Positions 45,224-63,453 of a stretch of DNA of 64,000 bases are shown here, one piece after another. The DNA lies in NCBI GenBank assembly GCA_001599595.1, contig BCHH01000002.1, forward strand, positions 3,622,077 through 3,686,076. Reading direction: 5' to 3'. Source of the DNA: Beverwykella pulmonaria (Eukaryota; Ascomycota; Dothideomycetes; Pleosporales; Melanommataceae). The notes below the pieces were generated by a model. That model had not been told where the DNA came from and did no database searches. It saw only the letters and a program-made list of their open reading frames with translations. The position numbers and the translations under genes are program-made. The number at the start of each line of letters is the position of its first letter. The stretch's first letter is position 1.

Positions 45224-47010
45224 ATGGCAGCCAACCCAGACGCTATTCTCCGCGAGGTCAACATCCTCGGTGCATTGAATGACCAGAACCGCAAGATTCT
45301 GAGTCGCGACGCCGCCGTCTTCCTCGCTCTCCTCCATCGCACATTCAACGAGCGCCGGAAAGCCCTGCTCCAGCGACGCATTGTCCGACAGGCCGAGCTC
45401 GATAAGGGCAATCTCCTCGACTTCCTCCCAGAGACTCGACACATCCGTGAGAACGAGACATGGAAGGGTGCTCCCCCAGCCCCCGGGCTTGTGGACAGAC
45501 GTGTGGAGATCACAGGGCCGACCGACAGAAAGATGGTTGTCAATGCATTGAACTCTGACGTGTGGACATACATGGCCGACTTCGAAGGTGAGACTTTGTC
45601 GAACGTGATATGCAGTGTGCTCAGGAAGCTCACAACCCAATAGACTCATCCGCTCCGACGTGGGACAACATGGTCAACGGCCAGCTCAACCTCTACGATG
45701 CCATCCGCAGGCAGGTCGACTTCAAGCAGGGTGAGAAGGAATACAAGCTGCGCACCGACCGGACACTCCCCACACTCATTGCCCGCGCCCGAGGCTGGCA
45801 TCTGGAGGAGAAGCACTTCACTGTTGACGGTGAGCCCATCTCTGGATCCCTGTTCGACTTTGGCCTGTACTTCTTCAACAACGCCGAGGAGCTCGTAAAG
45901 CGGGGGTTCGGCCCATACTTTTACCTGCCGAAGATGGAGTCCCATCTCGAGGCCAGGCTGTGGAATGACGTGTTCAATCTTGCACAGGACTACATTGGCA
46001 TGCGACGGGGCACCATCCGAGCTACTGTCCTGATCGAGACCATTACGGCTGCTTTCGAGATGGACGAGATCATCTACGAGCTCCGTGACCATTCCTCCGG
46101 CCTCAACTGCGGCCGTTGGGACTACATCTTCAACACCATCAAGCGCTTCCGCCAGAATCCTAGCTTCATCCTTCCCGACCGAGCCGCTGTGACTATGACA
46201 GTTCCCTTCATGGACGCGTATGTGAAGCTGCTCATCAAGACCTGCCACAAGCGAGGTGTGCATGCCATGGTAAGTCCACTATCCGACCACCTGATCAAAC
46301 TCAATTGACATGGCCTAGGGCGGTATGGCCGCGCAAATTCCCATCAAGAACGACCCCGCCGCGAACGACGCAGCTATGGCCAATGTCCGCGCCGATAAGC
46401 TCCGTGAAGTGCGTGCAGGCCATGACGGAACCTGGGTTGCTCACCCAGCCCTTGCGTCTATCGCCTCAGATGTTTTCAACACACACATGCCAGCACCTAA
46501 CCAGTTGTATGTGCGTCGCGAAGACGTACACATTACTGCCAACGACCTCCTCAACATGAACGTGCCTGGCAAGATCACTGAGGAAGGCATCCGCAAGAAC
46601 CTCGACATTGGTCTTGCTTACATGGAAGCCTGGGTCCGAGGCGTTGGATGTGTGCCCATAAACTACCTCATGGAGGACGCTGCCACTGCTGAAGTGTCAC
46701 GCAGCCAGCTCTGGCAATGGGCCAAGCACAACGTGCAGACTGCTGAGGGCCAGACAGTGACCAAAGACTTTGCGACCAAGTTGCTCAGAGAACAAGCAGC
46801 GAAGCTCGCTGCGAAAGCACCCAAGGGGAACAAGTTTGCCTTGGCTTCGAAGTACTTTGAGAGCCAGGTCACGGGCGAGGACTATGCCGAGTTCTTGACG
46901 TCGTACGTTTTTCAATCCTCCGTACGCATTGAAATATACTAACGTGCGGTAGACTGCTATACAACGAAATCACAAATGTAGGTCCCGCCAAAGGTGCTTC
47001 AAAGCTATAG
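45224..47010 (+). CDS. acuE: Malate synthase, glyoxysomal/peroxisomal
   Basis: Four exons: 45224-45587, 45644-46269, 46319-46902 and 46953-47010, giving 543 residues; the three introns are 49-56 nt, GT-AG and frame-keeping. The enzyme condenses glyoxylate with acetyl-CoA to malate in the glyoxylate cycle, needed on acetate or fatty acids. Signatures are '[16 protein letters not shown]', '[20 protein letters not shown]' (spanning intron 1), '[20 protein letters not shown]', '[20 protein letters not shown]', '[15 protein letters not shown]' and '[11 protein letters not shown]'. The product ends in Ser-Lys-Leu, a type 1 peroxisomal targeting signal encoded by the tiny last exon. Length and exon pattern fit fungal AcuE proteins. 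Confidence 0.96.
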
Positions 47011-52590: not shown

Positions 52591-55582
52591 CAGACTTGGC
52601 AACAAACAAGCTCAACAAGCTAGCTTGATTGGCTTGATTGTTACTAACAAACAAGCCAAACAAGCTGAGGAGTCGCTCCCTAACAATCAATCAAGCTGAG
52701 ATTCGTCAGCTTGTTTGGCTTGTTTGTTACTTTTGTAAGTGTTGAGGCTGTAGAGATGTACGTAAAGTACGTATATCATTGATTTTCATAGTGTTGATAT
52801 TCAATTGCCCCTATATCTATGGCCTCTAATTGGCTTACTAAGCGAGACGCTAGTACTAACTAAGTAAGGTTGCAATTTCTTTGACACGCCAACCATCTCC
52901 GTCAACATCAACTGCACCTACCTGCCCTCACCTATTACACCACTTTTACAGCAATTACCGCCGTCCTATCACTGCTAAAGACCTTACTAGGCATAAACGC
53001 TAACCTCTCGCAAGTATTCTTACAGCAGATTGAAAACGCGGGCTCACAGTTACCCTCCAACAGTGACGCAACTAATTACGCGACCAATGCGCCCTCCAAG
53101 CTCAATGCAATTAAATATCCACCTACTATAACACCTATACTGTTAGATAATTCTATATACAAAGGCATTAACTAGAAGTGTATTCCACAGCTTTAAAAGC
53201 CTCTATATAACCCAAAGCAAAGCTATTAGAGCTAGGTTTGGTAGTATAGTTACCAAGTTTACCATTGCAAGCATCACCAACTCTACTAGCTCTGCAAATA
53301 TTGCCACACCCATAAGGCCCCTAGAGGCCTATATAGGGCTAATTACTCTACAAGCTCTATTGCCAGGCATCTTGCTAAGCAGCAGAGAGGCTACAGAGTC
53401 AAAAAAGCTAGCTAAATTAACTTTCAGAAACTATTAGGTCAGCCCTTAGTGCTGGCCTAGATCCAGCAGCAACATAATATAGAGATTTGTCAAGACGTTG
53501 CCAATACGTTGGCCAATGCTTTTAAAAAGGAGTTATTTTAGCAGGCAGTTATTAACTTTGTAGTTTCCAATAATCAAGCTCTCTAAGTTATTAAGGCCCC
53601 AGCTTTTTAAGAGATAATTTAGCAGGCTAATCCTCTAGCTAAACACTACTTATAGAGGAGCCACAACACCCTCTAGGACTACATTATTGCCAAATATAAG
53701 GCCTACTTGCCTTTAGTTATTAATTACCTCAGCCAGTCACGCTTGCTAATACATATATTATTTAATAATTAGACATCAACTAGCAGTAAACGCGCTCTCA
53801 CAGGGATCTACGTACATTATCTAGACGCTGCTAGAGTGTTACAAGACTACGTTCTTAGGTTGCCCTCACTCCTGGGTCAACACTCTAGCAATAATATTGC
53901 TAGTGTAGTTAAAAAGACGCTTTAAACTTTTAGGATAACTCCAAAACGCCTTAGTTACTTTGTCCTTGACAATGCCCTAAATAACAACACTACAATAGAA
54001 GCCTTGGCCTTAGTGTACAACTTTAATCCCCAACACTAACAACTACACTATTTATGCTATATCCTTAACCTAGGGGCGCAGCAAATTATATTTAGGAAGG
54101 ACAGAGAGGCGTATAATAACTTAGACAAGAATATACTAGATAAGGAGCAGTTTATAGAGGAGTAGCAGAGGACTAGCCCCTTAGGTGTCCTACTTAACGT
54201 TATCACCTCTATATGTACTCCACAAGCCCGTTAGCTTCTTAAGGGCTTTTAAATTAATTACAACAACTACTTAGAAGACTCAAGATCCTTATTAGAGCCT
54301 ATTAAGCCTGTTAAGACTTGCTAGAACTCCTTCTGCTTATGTTTTAAGCGCGCTGTTAAATTACGCAACCCAATTAATAACTACATTTAGTACAAGACTA
54401 ATAAATACAACTAAGAGCTAGCAAAGCGTTGCAACTAGCTAGGAAATGTCCCAAAGAAGCCAAGGCTCTTTATTAAGGAGGGCGGCCTTACTGCTAAGGA
54501 CTAGGCTACAATATTAGAGTACATACAAATATTGGCGCTGTTTAAAGAAGCTACCCAAGAGCTTAAAGGCAGAGGCAAGGCTGGCTTATCTAGAGCCATA
54601 TAGGAAGTTATCCCAACATTTAATTGGCTTATTAATTAGCTCTAGGACACTATTAAGAGGCTTAATAACGCAAAGTTTAATAATATTAACAGACTAGAGG
54701 ACCACCTACTTATCAATTGCAAAGCAGCTCTTAAGAAGCTATTGGAGTACTACAATAAACTTTACAGTACCCCAGCGTACTATGCTGCCTGTAGGCTCCA
54801 TCTATAGTACAAGAACTACCTAGAAGAAGCCTAGCGTGTACCTAAGGATTACAATAAGCAGCTCTACAGCGCTAAACACCTATACAAGGGCTGGCTTAAA
54901 GAAAGCTACTGTTAATTTTAACTGCTCTAGAAGGCCTTCAAGGACTCTGCTAGGCCTTTAAGTGCTTCTTAAGCACCTCTACCAAAGAAAGTTTGCCTTA
55001 GTTACTCTACTAGTAGAGCTAACTTTATAAGGGCTACACTTAAGAGCGCTGAGAGCTCTTAGGAGAGTGATGATAAGTTTAATTACTAGAAGGCTGAGTT
55101 GCCTCTTAGCAAGAGCAAGTCATTGGCCAAGGACCTAATAAAGTACTGGCTTACAAAGGCTGAGCAGTATCCCTTGCTCTTACGCTTCGCCCTTAATATA
55201 TTAAGTATACCTGCTGCAGCCACAGACTGTGAGAGGACCTTCTCAGAGCTTGGAGACTTACTAGAAGTACAACAACTCCGCATGAAGCCTAACTTGCTCT
55301 TAGCGCTCCAGAGTCTCCAGAGTTGGAAGCGCATTAGCTTGAAGCCTCAGAAAAATCAATCAGGAGTCACCTCCAAGGTCCCCATCCAGATAGATACAAT
55401 ATACACGATTGATGATGTGCTCACGTGACTGGGCAATTCACTTCCTAATAAATAAACAAGCCAAACAAGCCGCCAGGCAAATATTTTCCTAACAAACAAG
55501 CCAAACAAGCCAGCCCCTTGATTGCTAACAAACAAGCAAGCCGGAGGGGCCAGCTTGTTTGGCTTGTTTGTTGCCAACTCTG
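52591..55582 (+). mobile_element. hAT-family DNA transposon, 2992 bp, decayed transposase
   Basis: The terminal inverted repeats start CAGACTTGGCAACAAACAAG at 52591 and, on the complement of the right end, CAGAGTTGGCAACAAACAAG; they differ at one of the first 20 bases. An 8-bp target-site duplication flanks the element. Subterminal DNA is packed with AACAAGCC-like motifs, including a perfect 24-bp inverted repeat (52645-52668 with 52706-52729). The interior reads as a hAT transposase with many in-frame TAG/TAA where TGG/CAA is expected. The C-terminal dimerisation domain is the clearest part: 'LIKYWLTKAEQYPLLLRFAL', 'ILSIPAAATDCERTFSELGD' and 'MKPNLLLALQSLQSWKRI' (55,126-55,345). The stop pattern resembles RIP. 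The transposase as read is non-functional. Confidence 0.92.
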
Positions 55583-55590
55583 GTTCCGAG
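55583..55590. repeat. Right 8-bp target-site duplication of hAT element
   Basis: gttccgag, identical to the left copy. Both copies sit in the same reading frame of the host exon (Ser-Glu codons TCC GAG). Confidence 0.9.
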
Positions 55591-58500
55591 GGAAAGAGCC
55601 TCGAGCCGGTGGAAATTCAGTCCCCTCATATCGTCATCACAAACGACCCAGTCCAGAACGATACCAATCATGACAATCTAATCATTCGACCACTGTCACG
55701 ACAATCAACGAACAGTAAAGAGAATTGGCGTCATGGAGACATCAAGCCAGAAAACATACTTCGATTCGAAGCTGATGGCACTTGGCTAGGGACCCTCAAG
55801 CTTGCAGACCTTGGTAGAGCTAAACAACGCTACCTTGCCACCCGGGAACTGCCTGACAAGGAAATCGACCGCTGGCGTACCAAGCCATACGAAGCTCCGG
55901 ACATCTGGATCAGCAAAGGGCAAGAGTCGATGTCACGGTTGTATGACTGCTGGGCTATGGGCTGTGTATTTTTCGAAGCAATTGTTTGGATGCTCTATGG
56001 CCAGCAAGCGATCTGGAATTTCGATGTGACGACGGCCAAGGCTCAGAAGGAGGGTACTCCTTATTGGTCAAGAGTGGGCGAATCGGGTGCCGAAGTCAGT
56101 GTGCTAGCAAGAGGCTGGATGGACTACATCTTGGAGAAAGATCCAGAATGTAATCCAAAAGCAGGGACCGTGTTGGGCGATCTCATGAGACTGGTGAAAG
56201 GGAAACTCCTCCAAATTCACCTACCCTTCAACTCTGATGTCTATGAGCAGGGGTATCGTACAAATGCCGAAGACATGCGCGAAGATATTGCAGCTATACT
56301 TGACAGAGCGGAAGCCGAAGAAAACGGCAAAACAGACGATCGATACATATTCACCGGGTCAGATCGGGAAAAGGTCCACCATCCCTCCATTGACCCTGAC
56401 TCTACACCAGCCCAAGAACCAAAGAACGCGTCGAACTTCCTTGCTTTACCTCATGCCCGTCAAAAGAACTCGCTCGCTGTGCCATCCCCGAAAGGAGGCG
56501 GTGGAGCGTTGACCACACGCAGCCAAAACCAATACACCCACTCCCTCAATGACGTGTGGAAATATGTGGACGATGATCAATTTGCTATCTCGGTCCTGCA
56601 ACGCAACAAATTTCCCTTCTCAACCCTGTTCTCAGAGGCCACATCCACCATTTGCAATCCTTGCCAGGAAGTCGGGCGTCATTTCCAACACTTCACCTTT
56701 GATCGATCAATGCGAGACTTGAGGAAAGCTGTGACAACTAAGTCCTGCGATCTCTGCTCATTGCTCTACTACACGGCGAAGAATTCCAAGATTGCAAGCA
56801 TAGCAATAGTAACATTCTCTACGTCTCTAGCAGGGGTGAGAATAAATGAGAATGGCAAAGACAATTTGGTCTTGAGGTTCTGCCGGTCTTGGGGTAAGTG
56901 TCCTTGCACAAGTCACCTTTGATTTATTGCCCGTCTTTTTTGATTTCTCAACCACATGAGACGATCCTCAATATCTCAATCGGCAAAATCTTACACTGCA
57001 CCCCAGTGATTCCCATTGCAGAGTCACTGTATATGCGACTAATAGCTGACCTATCTTGCAGATTTGCCAGCCAGCATGATTAAAGCACCATATCCCCCAA
57101 TTGGTCTCCCAAGATTACCAAATGCTGGAAGTAAACAACACGTAAAAATTCTTCGCGCATGGTTGAAAGATTGCGACGAACGTCATGAGTGTGGCCGGGC
57201 CGATTCAGGTCGATATTGTCCTAAACGGTTGTTGGCTGTTGGTTCGGAGCAAGAACATCCTCGATTGGTGGAGACTGCGCAGCTTGCTGAGAACGAACGA
57301 GAAGACATGAGGTATGTAGCGCTATCACACCCCTGGGGAGATCCGACCCGTCACGAACACTTTCGTACTACCACGGACACGATATCGGACTACCTGGACT
57401 CAGTGATATTGGACGACCTGCCACAGACCTTCAAGGATGCAGTCAAAATCACGAGGGATCTGAAAATTAAATACATCTGGATTGATTCCATCTGCATCCA
57501 TCAAGGGGAAGATGGGGACTTCAACGAACAGGCGCCATTCATGCAAGACATATTTGGCTCTGCCTACTGTGTGCTTGCTGCGAGCAGTGCCGAGGGAATG
57601 ACCTCGGGATTCTTAAAAGATGTAGAAGCTAAGGCAGTAGCTATCCGAGCGCAATTCGATCCGACTCCGGGCACACTATTCATTTCTCAATCAGTCGATG
57701 ATTTCCAGAAAGATGTGCTCGAGAGTTGTCTCAATAAACGTGGCTGGGTCTTCCAGGAAAGAGCTCTTGCACGTCGGACAATATTCTTCGCAAAGACTCA
57801 AACTTATTTCGAATGTGCAAATGGTGTTCGATGCGAATCTTTTAGCAAATTAGAAAAGTAAGTCTCTTCTATGGCATCTTACGACGGCAAAATTTGCTTG
57901 CTAATCATGATAACAGCTCGGAGGAAGCCTTTCTCGGCGATTCAGACTTTCCGAGATACGTAAAGCAAGAGAAGAACAAAGGTGCTCAACAATACCTTTT
58001 CGAAAGCTTGTACCGGAAATACTCTCGTCTAGAATTCTCAGAACATACTGACAAACCCATTGCAATCTCTGGGTTGGAACAAAGGCTATTGAAAGCGTTT
58101 GAAGACCGTGGTGGTGCAGGCATCTTTGAGAAGTACTGGGGCCGATGTCTACTATGGAAGAGAGCATCCAAGGATCACCCACTCGAGCGGATCAATTTCC
58201 AGCCTCCGACCGACAAAGAAACTTCAAAATCTGGCACGAAGAAACCCAGAACAACCTACAAATTGAGGCCTCCTCCATCGTGGTCTTGGATGTCCTATAT
58301 CGGCAGCATAGACTATGTTGAGCCTCCTCGTGCAGGTGTTGTTTGGAATGTTGAGGAAGTCCAACTTCACTACACCGGAGACCGGACGACGGCCTGGCTT
58401 TCTGCTACTGAAAACATGATTATAACTGCTATAGCGAGAGACTTCACTATTGGAGAGGATACTCATGAAAATGAGACGATGCTGACATATGACGATCAGG

Positions 58501-58694
58501 CATGGGAAAAACGAGCGAACAAAAAGTGCATCATCATTGGGTCGATGAAAACTACAACCGTGCACTATGTCCTCATCGTTAGTCCAATGGAGTCTGTGGA
58601 TAGATTTGCGTATGAACGTATTGGTGTTGGATATCTACCCGAAAAGTTTATCAGTGCACTGAAAGAGCAGGGTGAGACTGTGACTGTTCTATAG

Positions 58695-59415
58695 TTAGAA
58701 ATATACCTTGATGACTCTGTGCGTCGTCCTGGATCGCGCCCTTCTCATTTTTGTGGTAAATAACTTTAGCTTGTACAATAGAAGGATGCTAGTACTCATG
58801 ATGGGTAAAGATTTGAATGCGGCCTTGTCTCTTTTCTTGGTAAATTACGCGCTCTCAATCTTAATGAAAACTGAATACAAGAACAGTATCTCTACGCCCA
58901 CGAAACTCGCACTTTACATAGCAAATATTATTGAAATGGGGCGTCTCTGAGAATTTTCTTGTGCGTTGGTTTTGAAGTTTTTTTGATAATTATTTCAGCT
59001 TGTTGCCTTCCTTAGCTAGTTCAATTTCTTTGCTTGTTTACTTTTATGGTTTACTTTCTTAGTTCATTCACTATCTTAGTGTATTAACTTTCTTAGCTCA
59101 TATTCTTGCTGCGCTTTTTCTTCTTTTTTTCCGGCTTGTTTGTCTTCTTGGCTCGTGCAATTTTTAGCTTATTTACGTTACTTCTACTTTCTAGCTTGTC
59201 CTTATTCGCTTTCTCGGATTTCCATTCACTTCCTTGGCTCGTTTCTTTTCACTTTCTTGACCAGGCGTGTAAATGGCGTAAAATAAGATGAATCCTCTTA
59301 TGCAGTAGTTAGGCTGCAGAAATCTTTCAATTATAGGTAAGAATATTCCCTACATCAACAATTGCCTCGTTGTGCTTCGAAATCCTATCTACCTGCCCTC
59401 GATTTCACCCTTCAA
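58695..59415. other. Convergent intergenic region with degenerate T-rich repeats
   Basis: Lies between the kinase-HET gene and the leftward UstYa-type gene. At about 59,000-59,250 the plus strand is pyrimidine-rich, with loosely repeated 'actttcttagctcatt'-like units. No gene is supported. Confidence 0.4.
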
Positions 59416-60438
59416 TCAGTAGATGAGATCCCTATCCCAATCCCCGTCATTCAAATTCCTCTCCCTAGCCCAGGCTTGGATCGCTTCGAAATTACGACAC
59501 ACATGCGTCGACCCCATATTGATAAAGTTAATGCCAGGTTTACCTTGTGGCAATGTGAAGGAGAGCTCTGTAGCATCCTTCCAGTTCCAGTGCAAGGTCG
59601 CCACATCAGAATAACACATTATGCCCTGGCGAATGCGGTCGATGCAATGCTCTACACTTATCAGTCGTCGTACCTTCAAAAGAGGGGACCTCTCACAGGC
59701 AGGATACATACCAAAGTGAAGGACGGCGGCTCGATCGGCGGTTCCATTTGCGTCCATAATCCCCCCGTCGGGAAAACGATCAGGGTACAAACTTTTGCGA
59801 AGAGTATTCTTTAAAGGTTAGTGGATGCAAAACTCTTGCACGCGAAATCGTACGTACAAGACAATGGAGCTGGTGAAAGACTTCAAGCTGTACCATGTAC
59901 TTCCCCGCGTGTTTTCCACTCTCTAGTTTCACTGTTTGGTTGGGGAGTCTTTTGGCGGACGTTTCGTCTAGGAGTGTTCTCGCCGTTCCTGGTATCATTA
60001 TTGAGAGGCTAATCTTGTGGAAGAGGACGATTTCATACCAGCGTACAAGTCATCCCACAACTGGTCCAATTCATCCGTCGGTGTGCCCTGGTAAGGTGAG
60101 AAATTCCACTGGCCATCGGAAAAGACTTTGACTGAGTGTTCTACGATATCGTTCGCTGGAGCTGTGTATATGATTAAAAACATTTTGAACAACAAAGACG
60201 TCCAGAACTTACAGAACACAATTTTCACAATGTTTTGAGGATAGTTGAACGCAGCGAAGAGGAGAAAGAGGACAACAAAAGCATTGAGAAGGTATGATAG
60301 GATGTTGACAATTCCATACATCTTCAACCACCTATCTTCTCTCTCCAACTCCAACTGCAACATACTGTGAGTCTCGACACCGTTCAGCAACCCTACACGG
60401 CTCTCGTCGTGAGCGGGGGCTTCTGTACTTTTTCCCAT
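59416..60438 (-). CDS. UstYa-type oxidase (DUF3328), first of a divergent pair
   Basis: Five exons on the complement: 60438-60213, 60161-60039, 59988-59858, 59808-59712 and 59651-59416, giving 270 residues; all joints are GT-AG and frame-keeping. A membrane segment ('ILSYLLNAFVVLFLLFAAF') lies near residues 46-66. The two family signatures are 'LEVFHQLHCLNTLRKSLYPD' (HxxHC, spliced) and 'EHCIDRIRQGIMCYSDVATL' (HCxDxxR), followed by Trp-containing 'HWNWKD'. UstYa homologues are membrane-bound copper-type oxidases that cross-link Tyr-containing cores of ustiloxin-type RiPPs and also act in other pathways (family knowledge). The next gene is a second UstYa homologue, divergent across 742 bp. The ATG at 60438 is the one leading directly into the short cytosolic part before the membrane segment; an earlier in-frame ATG exists at 60546. 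Confidence 0.88.
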
Positions 60439-61180
60439 GGTGAAATTGCATCCAACAAAAGAGTGTTGGAAATTGACAGATTCAAATTGTTTGCAGCGCT
60501 CATCTACAGAACAATCTGCAGGTTGTTGATATTGGTAAATACCCAAAGATTTGTCGTTACATTGTAAACACTGTTATCAACGTTACGGATTGCTTTTCGC
60601 CAGGGATCACGCAGTAGTGACCAAGCACACAAACCTGCATATATTTTCTATCCTTGGCGTTAGACCTTAGTTCCAATCCTACAGAAACTACCGATCACAA
60701 GCCGGCGGAGGGTACTTAGGAATGGTCGAATGATCTCCATCTGTACAAGTGATTGGTAAGTTCTGAGAGTCATAGTAGCATAAATGCCCGACGAAGTAAC
60801 CCTGGTACATCCTTAGAACCTGATAACCTGCAGAAAATTATGCATTATTACTTACTAAATTGAGGAAATGCGAACCCCAAATGCAGTCGGGTCCTACCTA
60901 CTTTCCTTTGGCGGGGTACTCAGAACCTTAGCTTCACATAAAGATTGAGTATCCTTGAGCGGGTGCCCATATACTTGTCTTGGTTAGACATACAAAGGAG
61001 CTCATTTGCAGTGATGCACCAATGCGGTGCACAGGCCACCTAGGTCGGTGCAACACTAAAAAGAGCACCTTCGTAGGCCAACATCACAAGATAAGGCCAA
61101 GTATCGAGAGAAACAACATATTCTGGGCATTTTTCCATAGTGCATCGATTCCCTCATCTTTTAAAAAGTCAAGATTCAAG
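60439..61180. promoter_or_regulatory. Shared promoter region of the UstYa pair
   Basis: A 742-bp interval between outward-facing starts. No conserved cluster-specific palindrome was recognised by eye. Confidence 0.35.
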
Positions 61181-62141
61181 ATGGTAATCATGTTCTCAGT
61201 ATTTTCTAGAGTGGATCCAATATATAGACTTCTATCTCAACTCGAAAGTGATGAAGAGGGCAAAGAAGATGTCACACATCCAGTTCGGCCGCTCATATCT
61301 CGTTCATCGTGGCACTTTCATGGGCTACTTCTCCTAGTATCTTCGTCCCTCTTCATCTCAAGTCTTTTCAATTACAAATCACCCTCGATTTACGGTATCG
61401 AGATAGCTACTGCAAAATGGTGTAGGTGAAAAACCTGTCAATCCTCTTTATAATTTAATGACCACGAGTAAAGCAAGATCACTCTCCTCCCTCTCCACCC
61501 ACCCGACCAAATTCCGCGGCTCCTTTCTCGCCCCTTCAAAATTTCGAGGTTCCTTACCGGAAGCCAACAAGGAATGGGAGCGGTTCACCTTCAATCCTTA
61601 CATCGATGGTACCGCGATAGTCCTCGGTGTTACCAAGGAGGATATCCGTAAGAGCAACAAGATGGCCGATGACGACTGGTTTAACTCTACAGTCGTACTC
61701 AACGAAGGAAACAACAAAGAAGAGAGAAGGTATATGGCCACACTCGAAATCTTCCATCAAATGCATTGTCTTGATATGCTTCGTAAGTCGACATTCGGGG
61801 AGAAATACAAAGACGATGTGTCCCGAAAACACGGCCAGACACAGTTGCAGAGCCATTTGGGTAAGTCTCGTATATTCTTCTTCCTACAATCCCCCCCCTA
61901 AATTTTCTCGACAGACCACTGTATCGAAATTATCAGACAAGTCATCATGTGCAATAGCGATCCAGGACTTATCACTTTCCACTGGGTCAAGGATAATCCT
62001 GTTCCGTATCCGGACTTCAACACCTGGCATCAGTGTCGAGATGCGGATGCTACGTTGGAGTGGGGACGGAGGAATGCGTGGCCTTTGAAAGACTTCGTTC
62101 GGAAGAACAGGCTTGTGGTGGAGATGCCTGACGCGCCTTAG
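61181..62141 (+). CDS. UstYa-type oxidase (DUF3328), second of a divergent pair
   Basis: Three exons: 61181-61425, 61478-61860 and 61915-62141, giving 284 residues. Introns of 52 and 54 nt have GT-AG ends and keep the frame. A membrane segment ('WHFHGLLLLVSSSLFISSLF') lies near residues 45-65. 'WERFTFNPYIDGTAIVLGVT' follows, then the signatures 'LEIFHQMHCLDMLRKSTFGE' and 'DHCIEIIRQVIMCNSDPGLI' (the latter created by splicing), and 'FHWVKDNPVPYPDFNTWHQC'. It is the same family as the divergent neighbour but clearly distinct in sequence. Pairs of UstYa genes (a/b) are usual in dikaritin clusters. The precursor-peptide gene lies 1 kb downstream on the same strand. The first intron is placed by frame and is the least certain joint; an alternative start lies three codons downstream. 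Confidence 0.88.
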
Positions 62142-63134
62142 AAATAGATTTCAATAGCGAACAATGGTGCTAAGGTAATTTGATCTAGGTTTACGTATGT
62201 CTGCGGCTCCTAACGGCTTTTGACGTGTTACACATTTTAGATGTCACAGTTATGGATGATTGAGAATGGATTCTAAGTGTATCATTTCAGACGAAGCAGG
62301 TCTTTTGGCGAATAATGCATCGAATGCTCAACTGCCGACGTGCCGCTCTGTTCGAAAAAGGCTCCCAACCCAGGCAAGATCAAATGTTCTAGACTTTCAT
62401 CTTTACAACGGGGACAAGTTGCGATTTCACACACCCAGCGCTGCAAGCCAATATAGGGATGGGTTGGAGATTGGTCTAGGCTTAAAGAGGTAGGTAGACC
62501 ATCACGCCCAGTGGATACCAGCGACTACCCAGCGAACATCTGTGAGCCCCCAGGGAACACTAGTATATGCCAAGCAACCACCAGTGAACGAACAGTCTGT
62601 TGATAGAATGTCAATGGTTACTTTCGAGCTCAACGGCACATCGTTGATGTAACAACACAATGCCATAGTATACTTTCTTGCATTCCCTTATCTTCTTTCA
62701 CTCTCCTCATTAGGAAAATGGCGTGTTATCTGCTGTTACACGGCCATGTGATACATCTTCGGTCAATGGCTGATCGTGTTGATCTGCAGCTACCCAACGT
62801 TGTGATTCAAGCTTCAAAATTTGCAATGTTCTAGGATATCCTGTACTAGCGAACACCTAGGACGGTGAAAGATAAGCTGACGTGCATCTTCACCATGTCA
62901 ATCACTGCACTCCGAATCCTACCATGCGGATATCATGATTCTCGAATTCTCGGATACTGCCCCACTTACTTGCTCTGTTATATTCCCTCTCCTATAACCC
63001 CGCATAAAACAAATGTGCCAGTGTCCCATCCTTCATATAAAGCCATTCAACCATCCTATCCCATTCCCAAGCACCCTCCATCTTATTCCTCTTAGCATCT
63101 ACCCTTTACCTCACAAAATCCCGCCTCTTCCACC
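62142..63134. promoter_or_regulatory. Region upstream of the RiPP-precursor gene
   Basis: A 993-bp interval with no supported gene. A TATA-like tataaag (63,036-63,042) lies about 95 bp before the precursor ATG, followed by a C/T-rich leader, the arrangement of a strongly expressed small secreted-protein gene. Confidence 0.45.
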
Positions 63135-63453
63135 ATGAAGCTCCACAACAGTCTCAGCCTCATCCTGGCTGCTCTCACCTGTAGCACACTCGCGGCACCA
63201 ATCAGTGACAAATCCCCATTTCCCCCCATCACCACTACCCGCCTGCTAACCCAGTTCAATAGCAGCTGCCAACGACGTTGATGCTCTAGAGACTCGTATC
63301 TACTACAAAACTACCGACAGTTTTGAGAAGCGAGACAACGACGTTGACGCTCTCGAGACTCGCATCTACTACAAAACCACCAACGACGTTGAGAAACGTG
63401 ATAACGACGTCGACACTCTTGAGACGAGAATCTACTACAAATCGGAGAAGTGA
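63135..63453 (+). CDS. Ustiloxin-type (dikaritin) RiPP precursor with three Kex2-spaced repeats
   Basis: Two exons, 63135-63204 and 63263-63453, with a 58-nt intron (branch-like CTAAC, acceptor AG at 63262); 86 residues. Residues 1-20 ('MKLHNSLSLILAALTCSTLA') are a signal peptide. Then come three copies of a 22-residue (66-bp) unit: 'NDVDALETRIYYKTT...EKR', 'DNDVDALETRIYYKTT...EKR' and 'DNDVDTLETRIYYKSEK'. The first two end in Lys-Arg, a Kex2/KexB site. Repeated short cores containing Tyr, separated by KR and next to UstYa oxidase genes, define ustiloxin/asperipin/phomopsin-type precursors (family knowledge). 'RIYYK' is invariant in all three and is the likely core (inference). A second acceptor at 63265 would shorten the product by one Ala. 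The stop TGA overlaps a donor-like GTGAGT, so a further 3' exon cannot be excluded, but no fourth repeat is seen. Confidence 0.85.

Follow-up and report, generated by a model that had tools for sequence, protein, structure and literature searches.

Do two divergently arranged DUF3328/UstYa genes and the short repeat-bearing gene beside them work together in Beverwykella pulmonaria to build a cyclic peptide? The three neighbouring genes, UstYa-A on the minus strand, UstYa-B on the plus strand and a spliced precursor gene, lie in a 64,000-nucleotide stretch of contig BCHH01000002.1 (the window), whose numbering is used throughout. Most likely, the trio turns a short repeated template into a ring-shaped peptide. 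The locus is probably a compact, tyrosinase-free member of the dikaritin (ustiloxin) type, in which Kex2 would release the repeat units, whose Ile-Tyr-Tyr-Lys centre the UstYa pair would oxidise; the cyclisation, the borders of the core and any cross-link are what we infer.

The spliced model of UstYa-A encodes a DUF3328/UstYa oxidase of 270 aa in five exons on the minus strand, from 60438 down to 59416 (60438-60213, 60161-60039, 59988-59858, 59808-59712 and 59651-59416). The protein matches the Pfam UstYa family with 158.3 bits (cut-off 25), carries the motifs HQLHC (155) and HFEHC (191), and has a hydrophobic segment at residues 46-64 by hydropathy. UstYa-B is encoded on the plus strand at 61181-62141 by three exons (61181-61425, 61478-61860 and 61915-62141) and is a 284-aa oxidase of the same family (150.2 bits, same cut-off) with HQMHC (175) and HLDHC (208). 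Its hydrophobic segment, residues 45-63, is weaker, the best window reaching 1.53, below the membrane-segment threshold of 1.6 that was used. By the gene model coordinates, the divergent intergenic region between the two genes is 742 bp long (60439-61180). With these Pfam scores and both HxxHC motifs present in each protein after correct splicing, the initial annotation was right to call two genuine UstYa genes.

UstYa-A was for a time regarded as a degenerate partner, with an apparent SVEHC as its second motif. This motif was an artefact of a 60-bp intron kept in frame in a 290-aa model: the alignment with relatives showed an insert, removal of the intron gave HFEHC, and the idea was therefore dropped. 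The search for relatives and the alignment were made with the 290-aa version, and the Pfam, motif, hydropathy and tree analyses with the 270-aa version. The nearest named relatives of UstYa-A were found in Dendryphion and Melanomma, both members of the Pleosporales. In the UstYa tree, UstYa-A fell in no strongly supported set, and UstYa-B fell within a 10-row clade with support of 100/99. UstYa-A and UstYa-B both have relatives in Thozetella sp. PMI_491 that are numbered consecutively (GQ53DRAFT_825741 and 825742) and whose contigs are equal in length, which suggests that they adjoin each other there as well; on the A side, the tree groups the Thozetella relative with weak support (68/89). The predicted model of a UstYa-B relative, P0002 (51% identical), places the two motifs within helices (174-189 and 205-224), at a moderate quality (mean pLDDT 73.6). 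A fold search with this model gave nothing at E 0.001 or better, and the search of solved structures returned a chance match only (E 0.91).

The precursor gene (63135-63453, plus strand) encodes 86 aa in two exons, 63135-63204 and 63263-63453. Its 58-bp intron (63205-63262) is bounded by a GTGACA donor and a TAG acceptor, with CTAAC as the branch site, and an alternative acceptor 3 bp downstream would lose one Ala. A possible TATA box, TATAAA at 63036-63041, lies 99 bp 5' of the ATG on the plus strand and is a consensus match only. No k-mers beyond chance were common to the precursor promoter and the UstYa intergenic region. The N-terminus is hydrophobic over residues 9-21 (mean hydropathy 2.09), and from this feature alone the precursor is predicted to be secreted. 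The short, spliced, Kex2-type repeat precursor that had been proposed next to the UstYa pair was found again, at 993 bp from UstYa-B.

The repeat itself required some correction. Three units of 22 residues split by Lys-Arg had been described; the units are nearly identical and Lys-Arg does separate them, but only two are full, unit 1 (NDVDALETRIYYKTTDSFEKRD, 63271-63336) and unit 2 (NDVDALETRIYYKTTNDVEKRD, 63337-63402), whereas unit 3 (NDVDTLETRIYYKSEK, 63403-63453, all on the plus strand) runs for 16 residues to the stop with no Lys-Arg after it. The array is small, with two Lys-Arg sites and 2.6 units; TRF counted 2.6 copies of a 66-bp repeat at 63270-63441. The RIYYK centre is invariant as stated, but it belongs to a longer block kept in all units, NDVD[A/T]LETRIYYK.

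The shortened array, its last unit lacking Lys-Arg, raises the question of whether the gene is a decaying remnant of a longer array that no longer gives a product, and another array of the same genome (L028) does change frame. Over the 13 shared codons, summed for the three unit pairs, we counted 12.0 synonymous differences in 24.0 sites and 4.0 nonsynonymous differences in 93.0. When the differences were placed at random, pairs 1-2, 2-3 and 1-3 showed equally few amino-acid changes in 6, 33 and 7 of 20000 trials respectively, the first pair being tested over 22 codons and the other two over 13, and the pairs not being independent. Since the differences between units are mostly synonymous, the units look selected as peptide, and exchange between units could be another cause of their likeness. 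This excess of synonymous over nonsynonymous differences, together with the open frame, the clean splice sites and the TATA-like box, speaks against a remnant, which we consider very improbable.

A second question is whether the enzymes and the precursor are neighbours by accident, the UstYa pair serving an unlinked pathway. The genome holds 58 UstYa matches, which were grouped into 31 loci, so that one of them might sit next to some unrelated small gene; the Pfam matches in the flanking frames are also ordinary (HET, kinase, malate synthase and PIP5K). In control sequence, however, frames with Lys-Arg repeats are rare: the repeat detector found none in 2.62 Mb simulated with an order-2 Markov model, and none in the 97.5 kb of real sequence that flank the trio locus. 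The Lys-Arg repeat at the trio locus exceeds chance, with the flanks of that same locus as the real-sequence control. The closeness of the genes also fits a published survey, in the portion consulted, where DUF3328 genes lie within 15 genes of 1758 of 7878 Kex2 repeat precursors and the adjacent position is the commonest (PMC7329392). An accidental neighbourhood is thus highly unlikely.

The repeat scan covered 24 of the 31 grouped UstYa loci. Lys-Arg repeat frames were present at six of the 24, the trio included (five of the 23 others), and no array was accepted at the remaining 18. Matches at L026 were discarded as Arg-rich low complexity. Two further frames were set aside, one running on the opposite strand to the L021 array and one out of frame with the L035 array; two frames at L028, where the array shifts frame, were counted as one. 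Six of 24 UstYa blocks against none of about 10 control blocks is only suggestive of a link between the arrays and UstYa genes.

To describe the neighbourhood, 38 kb past the window were taken in. For the first 18 kb of this a list of reading frames was drawn up, and 11 of these frames were submitted to Pfam; L011 and L012 were covered by the repeat scan only. In all, 20 surrounding frames picked by eye were run against Pfam: eight from 36-59 kb of the window, one between UstYa-B and the precursor, six of 43 in L009 and five of seven in L010. No methyltransferase, transporter or peptidase was recognised among these 20, a scan that spliced or smaller genes could escape. The KexB, methyltransferase or tyrosinase gene for which a rightward search had been proposed did not appear, as no peptidase, methyltransferase or tyrosinase was among the 11 frames scanned beyond the window. 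The sole scanned frame that resembles a reductase encodes a short-chain dehydrogenase and lies about 10 kb past the window (L010:2089-2967). The genome has 38 tyrosinase matches, none of them on the contig of the locus (C2), and one kexin-type gene, a single P-domain match on another contig.

Among known loci, the best reading is that asperipin-2a of Aspergillus flavus (aprA/aprY/aprT/aprR) is the nearest in make-up. As far as its description in PMC6514808 was compared, it is likewise a small cluster with a precursor and a UstYa-type oxidase, and its four genes include no tyrosinase, just as the trio has none on its contig. Differences exist nonetheless: asperipin-2a has one UstYa gene and the trio two, and it has a transporter and a reductase, whereas neither a transporter nor an AprR-like reductase was recognised among the 20 frames at the trio. 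The cores, FYYTGY and IYYK, share a Tyr-Tyr pair and are otherwise unrelated (PMC6514808). The trio therefore matches the asperipin-2a type in combining a UstYa oxidase with a repeat precursor, with no tyrosinase on the contig, and lacks the reductase and transporter in these scans.

The ustiloxin B cluster (ustA, ustYa, ustYb, ustQ and others) resembles the trio in that a pair of UstYa genes adjoins a precursor with a leader and Kex2 sites, but by the same partial comparison it requires the tyrosinase UstQ and contains many tailoring genes (PMC6514808), none of which was recognised at the trio. The phomopsins (phomA), the original dikaritins, likewise have repeated cores separated by Lys-Arg and DUF3328 genes; unlike the trio, their cluster is described with a tyrosinase, a methyltransferase, five DUF3328 genes and eight repeats (PMC7329392, PMC6514808), and the passages compared give 16 peptides for UstA and eight repeats for PhomA (PMC6514808), numbers beside which the two Lys-Arg sites and 2.6 units of the trio are few and speak somewhat against the dikaritin reading. 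A ring of the ustiloxin kind, joining Tyr and Ile, had been thought chemically suited to the IYYK core. The analogy is weak, the residues standing in the opposite order: in YAIG the Tyr stands two places before the Ile, whereas in IYY the Ile stands two places before the second Tyr, so that the trio has I-Y-Y-K and not the Y-x-I core with a Tyr-Ile ring of the ustiloxin/phomopsin type. Moreover, a tyrosinase is reported to be needed for ustiloxin and phomopsin cyclisation (PMC7329392, as consulted), and the contig has none. Under the 2021 definition of dikaritins, in which a DUF3328 protein defines the class (quoted in PMC12048977), the trio has the UstYa proteins bearing two HXXHC motifs and a nearby precursor with Kex2-separated repeats; a signal peptide, for which the hydrophobic N-terminus of the precursor is a candidate, and an oxidatively cyclised product also belong to that definition. 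An older definition by Ding et al., quoted in the same source, names five genes and calls for a tyrosinase, a methyltransferase, and a transporter or peptidase in the cluster, and the trio has no tyrosinase on its contig.

How might such a locus work? The hydrophobic leader would take the precursor into the secretory pathway, and Kex2 cleavage after the two Lys-Arg pairs that are present would yield three peptides, all containing the conserved block. Judging from the family, UstYa-A and UstYa-B would be membrane-bound, their catalytic domains facing the lumen of the Golgi or endosome. In CctR, a UstYa member, binuclear copper, O2 dependence and a requirement for the HxxHC motifs are described (PMC12435403, in the part compared). 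The paired motifs of the trio enzymes would likewise form a two-copper centre, and the pair would oxidise the Ile-Tyr-Tyr-Lys centre. CctR and the other cyclochlorotine DUF3328 enzymes share the family and the double HxxHC copper site, but they act on a non-ribosomal peptide and CctR hydroxylates without closing a ring, unlike the role proposed here (PMC12435403, same part). The ether links of asperipin-2a join Tyr side chains to beta-carbons (PMC6514808, as compared), and a bond of this fashion, Tyr oxygen to beta-carbon, would be the likeliest ring closure. The acidic flanks may serve as recognition or leader sequence, later trimmed by unlinked peptidases, and neither tyrosinase nor methyltransferase would be involved, judging by the locus.

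Kex2 cutting alone could instead release linear secreted peptides, such as a signal, a pheromone-like factor or an effector, with the UstYa enzymes acting elsewhere. In the published survey, so far as consulted, most Kex2 repeat precursors (6120 of 7878) lack a neighbouring DUF3328 gene, and several of the known ones function in linear form (PMC7329392); in the protein search made, no relative ties the repeat to a ring, and no product does. Against this, the precursor adjoins UstYa-B and every unit has a Tyr-Tyr pair, Tyr being commoner in DUF3328-linked repeats (65.6% vs 38.2%; PMC7329392, same portion). Linear products are therefore unlikely, and we retain the cyclic peptide as the preferred reading. 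A further proposal, which we put forward tentatively and regard as doubtful, is that the two deeply divergent UstYa enzymes cooperate, as a heterodimer or sequentially, on the tyrosinase-free core. They would form an undescribed ring, either with a bond from Tyr oxygen to the beta-carbon of the Ile before it or as a bicycle that involves both Tyr residues, with the acidic NDVDALET as recognition tag.

The trio is a further example of a kind already known in many fungi, and the kind itself is not new. Kex2-processed repeat proteins (KEPs) in general, as far as compared, have the same leader followed by near-identical repeats split by Lys-Arg; those linked to DUF3328 have 1.7 DUF3328 genes each on average, and 2560 of the 7878 repeat precursors are without homologue, stand-alone precursors being common (PMC7329392, in the portion consulted). 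Both this commonness, including the 1758 with DUF3328 neighbours, and the five other arrays in the genome place the trio in a known kind. Newness of the repeat means that its core sequence was absent from the searches made, and nothing beyond that. A search of the precursor against 5.8 billion proteins, which reaches only proteins of similar length with short exact words in common, yielded 250 candidates, none of which reached E 1. The genome has no second copy, the single match being the precursor itself, and a full-text literature search for IYYK gave no title on fungal RiPPs among the matches listed. The repeat is also absent from the main text of the KEP survey (PMC7329392), to which the comparison was confined, its type tables being in the supplements. 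The candidate new core of the initial annotation thus stands, without a match in protein, genome or literature searches, but as a new core sequence only.

Unless confirmed, the trio is one extra sequence in a large, already mapped class. If confirmed, its core with Ile before Tyr-Tyr would probe which residue orders UstYa enzymes accept, and this very small peptide locus with two UstYa genes would offer a clear-cut setting in which to test how paired UstYa enzymes divide their work without a tyrosinase, now that copper dependence is known for one member of the family.

UstYa-A (270 aa), UstYa-B (284 aa) and the precursor lie close to the right-hand edge of the window, which spans C2:3622077-3686076 in a genome of 45.6 Mb in 31 contigs. 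The three gene models were rebuilt by splice sites and place UstYa-A at 60438 to 59416 (minus strand), UstYa-B at 61181 to 62141 (plus strand) and the precursor at 63135 to 63453 (plus strand), the last with the 86 residues of the initial annotation. Both enzymes scored far above the Pfam UstYa cut-off of 25 (158.3 bits for UstYa-A, 150.2 bits for UstYa-B). UstYa-B carries the HxxHC motifs HQMHC and HLDHC, and UstYa-A carries HQLHC and HFEHC, the second of which is visible only once the fourth intron is removed; both motifs are present in 29/32 relatives. A hydrophobic segment is clear in UstYa-A and weaker in UstYa-B (best window 1.53). The DUF3328 enzyme CctR is described as a homodimer bound to the membrane, each monomer carrying two coppers at HxxHC...HxxHC; it reportedly requires O2 and electrons and loses all activity when motif residues are changed (PMC12435403). 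In the structure model of a UstYa-B relative (51% identical), both motifs are predicted on helices, as in CctR, with moderate confidence.

The precursor was taken to hold three 22-residue units; two are indeed complete, and the third has only 16 residues (66-base unit, 2.6 copies by Tandem Repeats Finder). All units share NDVD[A/T]LETRIYYK, and two Lys-Arg pairs stand between them. Over the 13 shared codons, summed for three unit pairs, we counted 12.0 synonymous differences in 24.0 sites and 4.0 nonsynonymous differences in 93.0 sites. When the observed change count of each pair was placed at random in 20000 trials, as few amino-acid changes arose in 6/20000 for units 1-2 (22 codons), 33/20000 for units 2-3 and 7/20000 for units 1-3 (13 codons each), the three pairs not being independent and exchange between units being able to raise their likeness as well. 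Despite this, the mostly synonymous differences between units point to a peptide that is translated and under selection. A search of 5.8 billion proteins gave 250 candidate relatives of the precursor, none of them at E 1 or better, and a second copy was not found in the genome.

The relatives of UstYa-B form a well-supported clade (10 rows, 100/99) with members from Zarea, Xylariaceae, Thozetella and Purpureocillium and an environmental sequence (64% identical). The nearest relatives of UstYa-A are from Dendryphion nanum (56%) and Melanomma pulvis-pyrius (47%). In other fungi, too, enzymes of the A type and B type may have stayed paired, since the B-type and A-type relatives of Thozetella sp. 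PMI_491 are numbered consecutively (825741 and 825742) and both come from contigs 725705 long, consecutive numbers not proving adjacency; the A-side grouping of the Thozetella relative is weak (68/89). No close paralogue of either enzyme was found in the genome, where paralogue fragments are 29-50% identical.

To the left of the trio lie a malate synthase (45592-46939), a kinase-like frame (55522-56919), a heterokaryon incompatibility (HET) domain frame recognised by Pfam (57046-57858), a frame without Pfam match (57846-58691) and, in a T-rich stretch that separates the HET frame from UstYa-A, a degenerate 17-bp tandem repeat (59053-59101). The first gene-like frame to the right judged worth Pfam scanning is short, has a leader-like beginning and matched nothing in Pfam (L009:3085-3735, beyond the window, ~1.6 kb from the precursor); further right follow a PIP5K gene and others including a Rix1-complex component in stretch L010. 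Extension rightwards had been proposed to look for KexB, methyltransferase or tyrosinase genes, but no tyrosinase, methyltransferase, peptidase or transporter was recognised by Pfam in 20 surrounding frames, a selection from which spliced genes may escape. None of the 38 genome-wide tyrosinase matches is on the contig of the trio, and the single P-domain kexin-type match is on a different contig. Elsewhere, tyrosinase and UstYa matches lie ~0.5 kb apart at C3:4549360-4551225 and ~3.2 kb apart at C20:10504-14549, pairings that resemble ustiloxin-type clusters; the repeat scan of L036, which surrounds the C3 pairing, detected no Lys-Arg repeat.

Because it lacks a tyrosinase, the trio locus falls outside the older five-gene definition of dikaritins, and it qualifies as a candidate under the newer one, quoted in PMC12048977, in which a DUF3328 protein marks a dikaritin. 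The closest precedent is asperipin-2a, described with an FYYTGY core, one UstYa enzyme, four genes without tyrosinase, and ethers linking Tyr side chains to beta-carbons (PMC6514808). The ustiloxin analogy drawn earlier is weaker, because there Tyr stands two places ahead of Ile and a tyrosinase is required.

To see whether such repeats accompany UstYa genes by chance, in-frame repeats at Lys-Arg sites were scanned around UstYa matches. All 58 matches in the genome fell into 31 loci, of which 24 were scanned (the trio locus, L014-L033 and L034-L036). Arrays were accepted at 6/24 loci (the trio locus, L014, L017, L021, L028 and L035); a seventh candidate, at L026, was set aside because it is low-complexity sequence rich in Arg. 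No array was found in 97.5 kb of control sequence, all flanking the trio locus (window 1-59000, L009 from 1501, L010-L012), or in 2.62 Mb of Markov simulated sequence. A tie between arrays and UstYa loci is thus suggestive, 6/24 against 0/~10 control 10-kb blocks being short of proof. Much stronger evidence for the precursor-UstYa link comes from the published survey, which reports DUF3328 genes within 15 genes of 1758/7878 Kex2 repeat precursors, with a peak at the neighbouring gene, and Tyr in 65.6% of DUF3328-linked repeats vs 38.2% elsewhere (PMC7329392).

The other arrays differ in their units. L014:5415-6026 (C4 ~335-336 kb), with a leader-like N-terminus and two UstYa matches nearby, has three near-identical 41-residue copies and a divergent first stretch. 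L017:6617-6991 (C17 ~318 kb), with two UstYa matches alongside, has five copies of a 23-residue unit with IVYPDTGLYAE. L021:1843-2412 (C3 ~345 kb), near UstYa genes, has AYPESYKR 14 times, mostly within a 13-residue unit (NDEAIAYPESYKR); its start at L021:2532 (minus strand) resembles a leader. The QFGYNVPAG array near a UstYa gene at L028:2080-2341 (C15 ~849 kb) contains one frame change and may therefore be decaying or spliced. From ~6313 in L035 (C2 ~703 kb), near UstYa matches, a 34-residue repeat ends in LLAPRIGYKR, faintly like the RIYYK centre of the trio precursor.

We propose that Kex2 would release the units in the Golgi, where UstYa-A and UstYa-B, facing the lumen, would abstract hydrogen from an Ile or Tyr beta-carbon and bond that carbon to a Tyr oxygen. 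The acidic flanks would be trimmed afterwards by peptidases encoded outside the locus.

The core sequence was not found in the published texts searched, in keeping with the first impression that it is unfamiliar. The trio nevertheless belongs to an already known kind of locus, and what is new is this member, since lone precursors and such clusters are already common in print: no homologue was reported for 2560/7878 Kex2 repeat precursors, more than 40 precursor types were reported in 20 Aspergillus strains (PMC7329392), and nine such clusters in Venturia inaequalis alone (PMC9632046). The significance of the trio is modest unless its chemistry reveals a new ring type.
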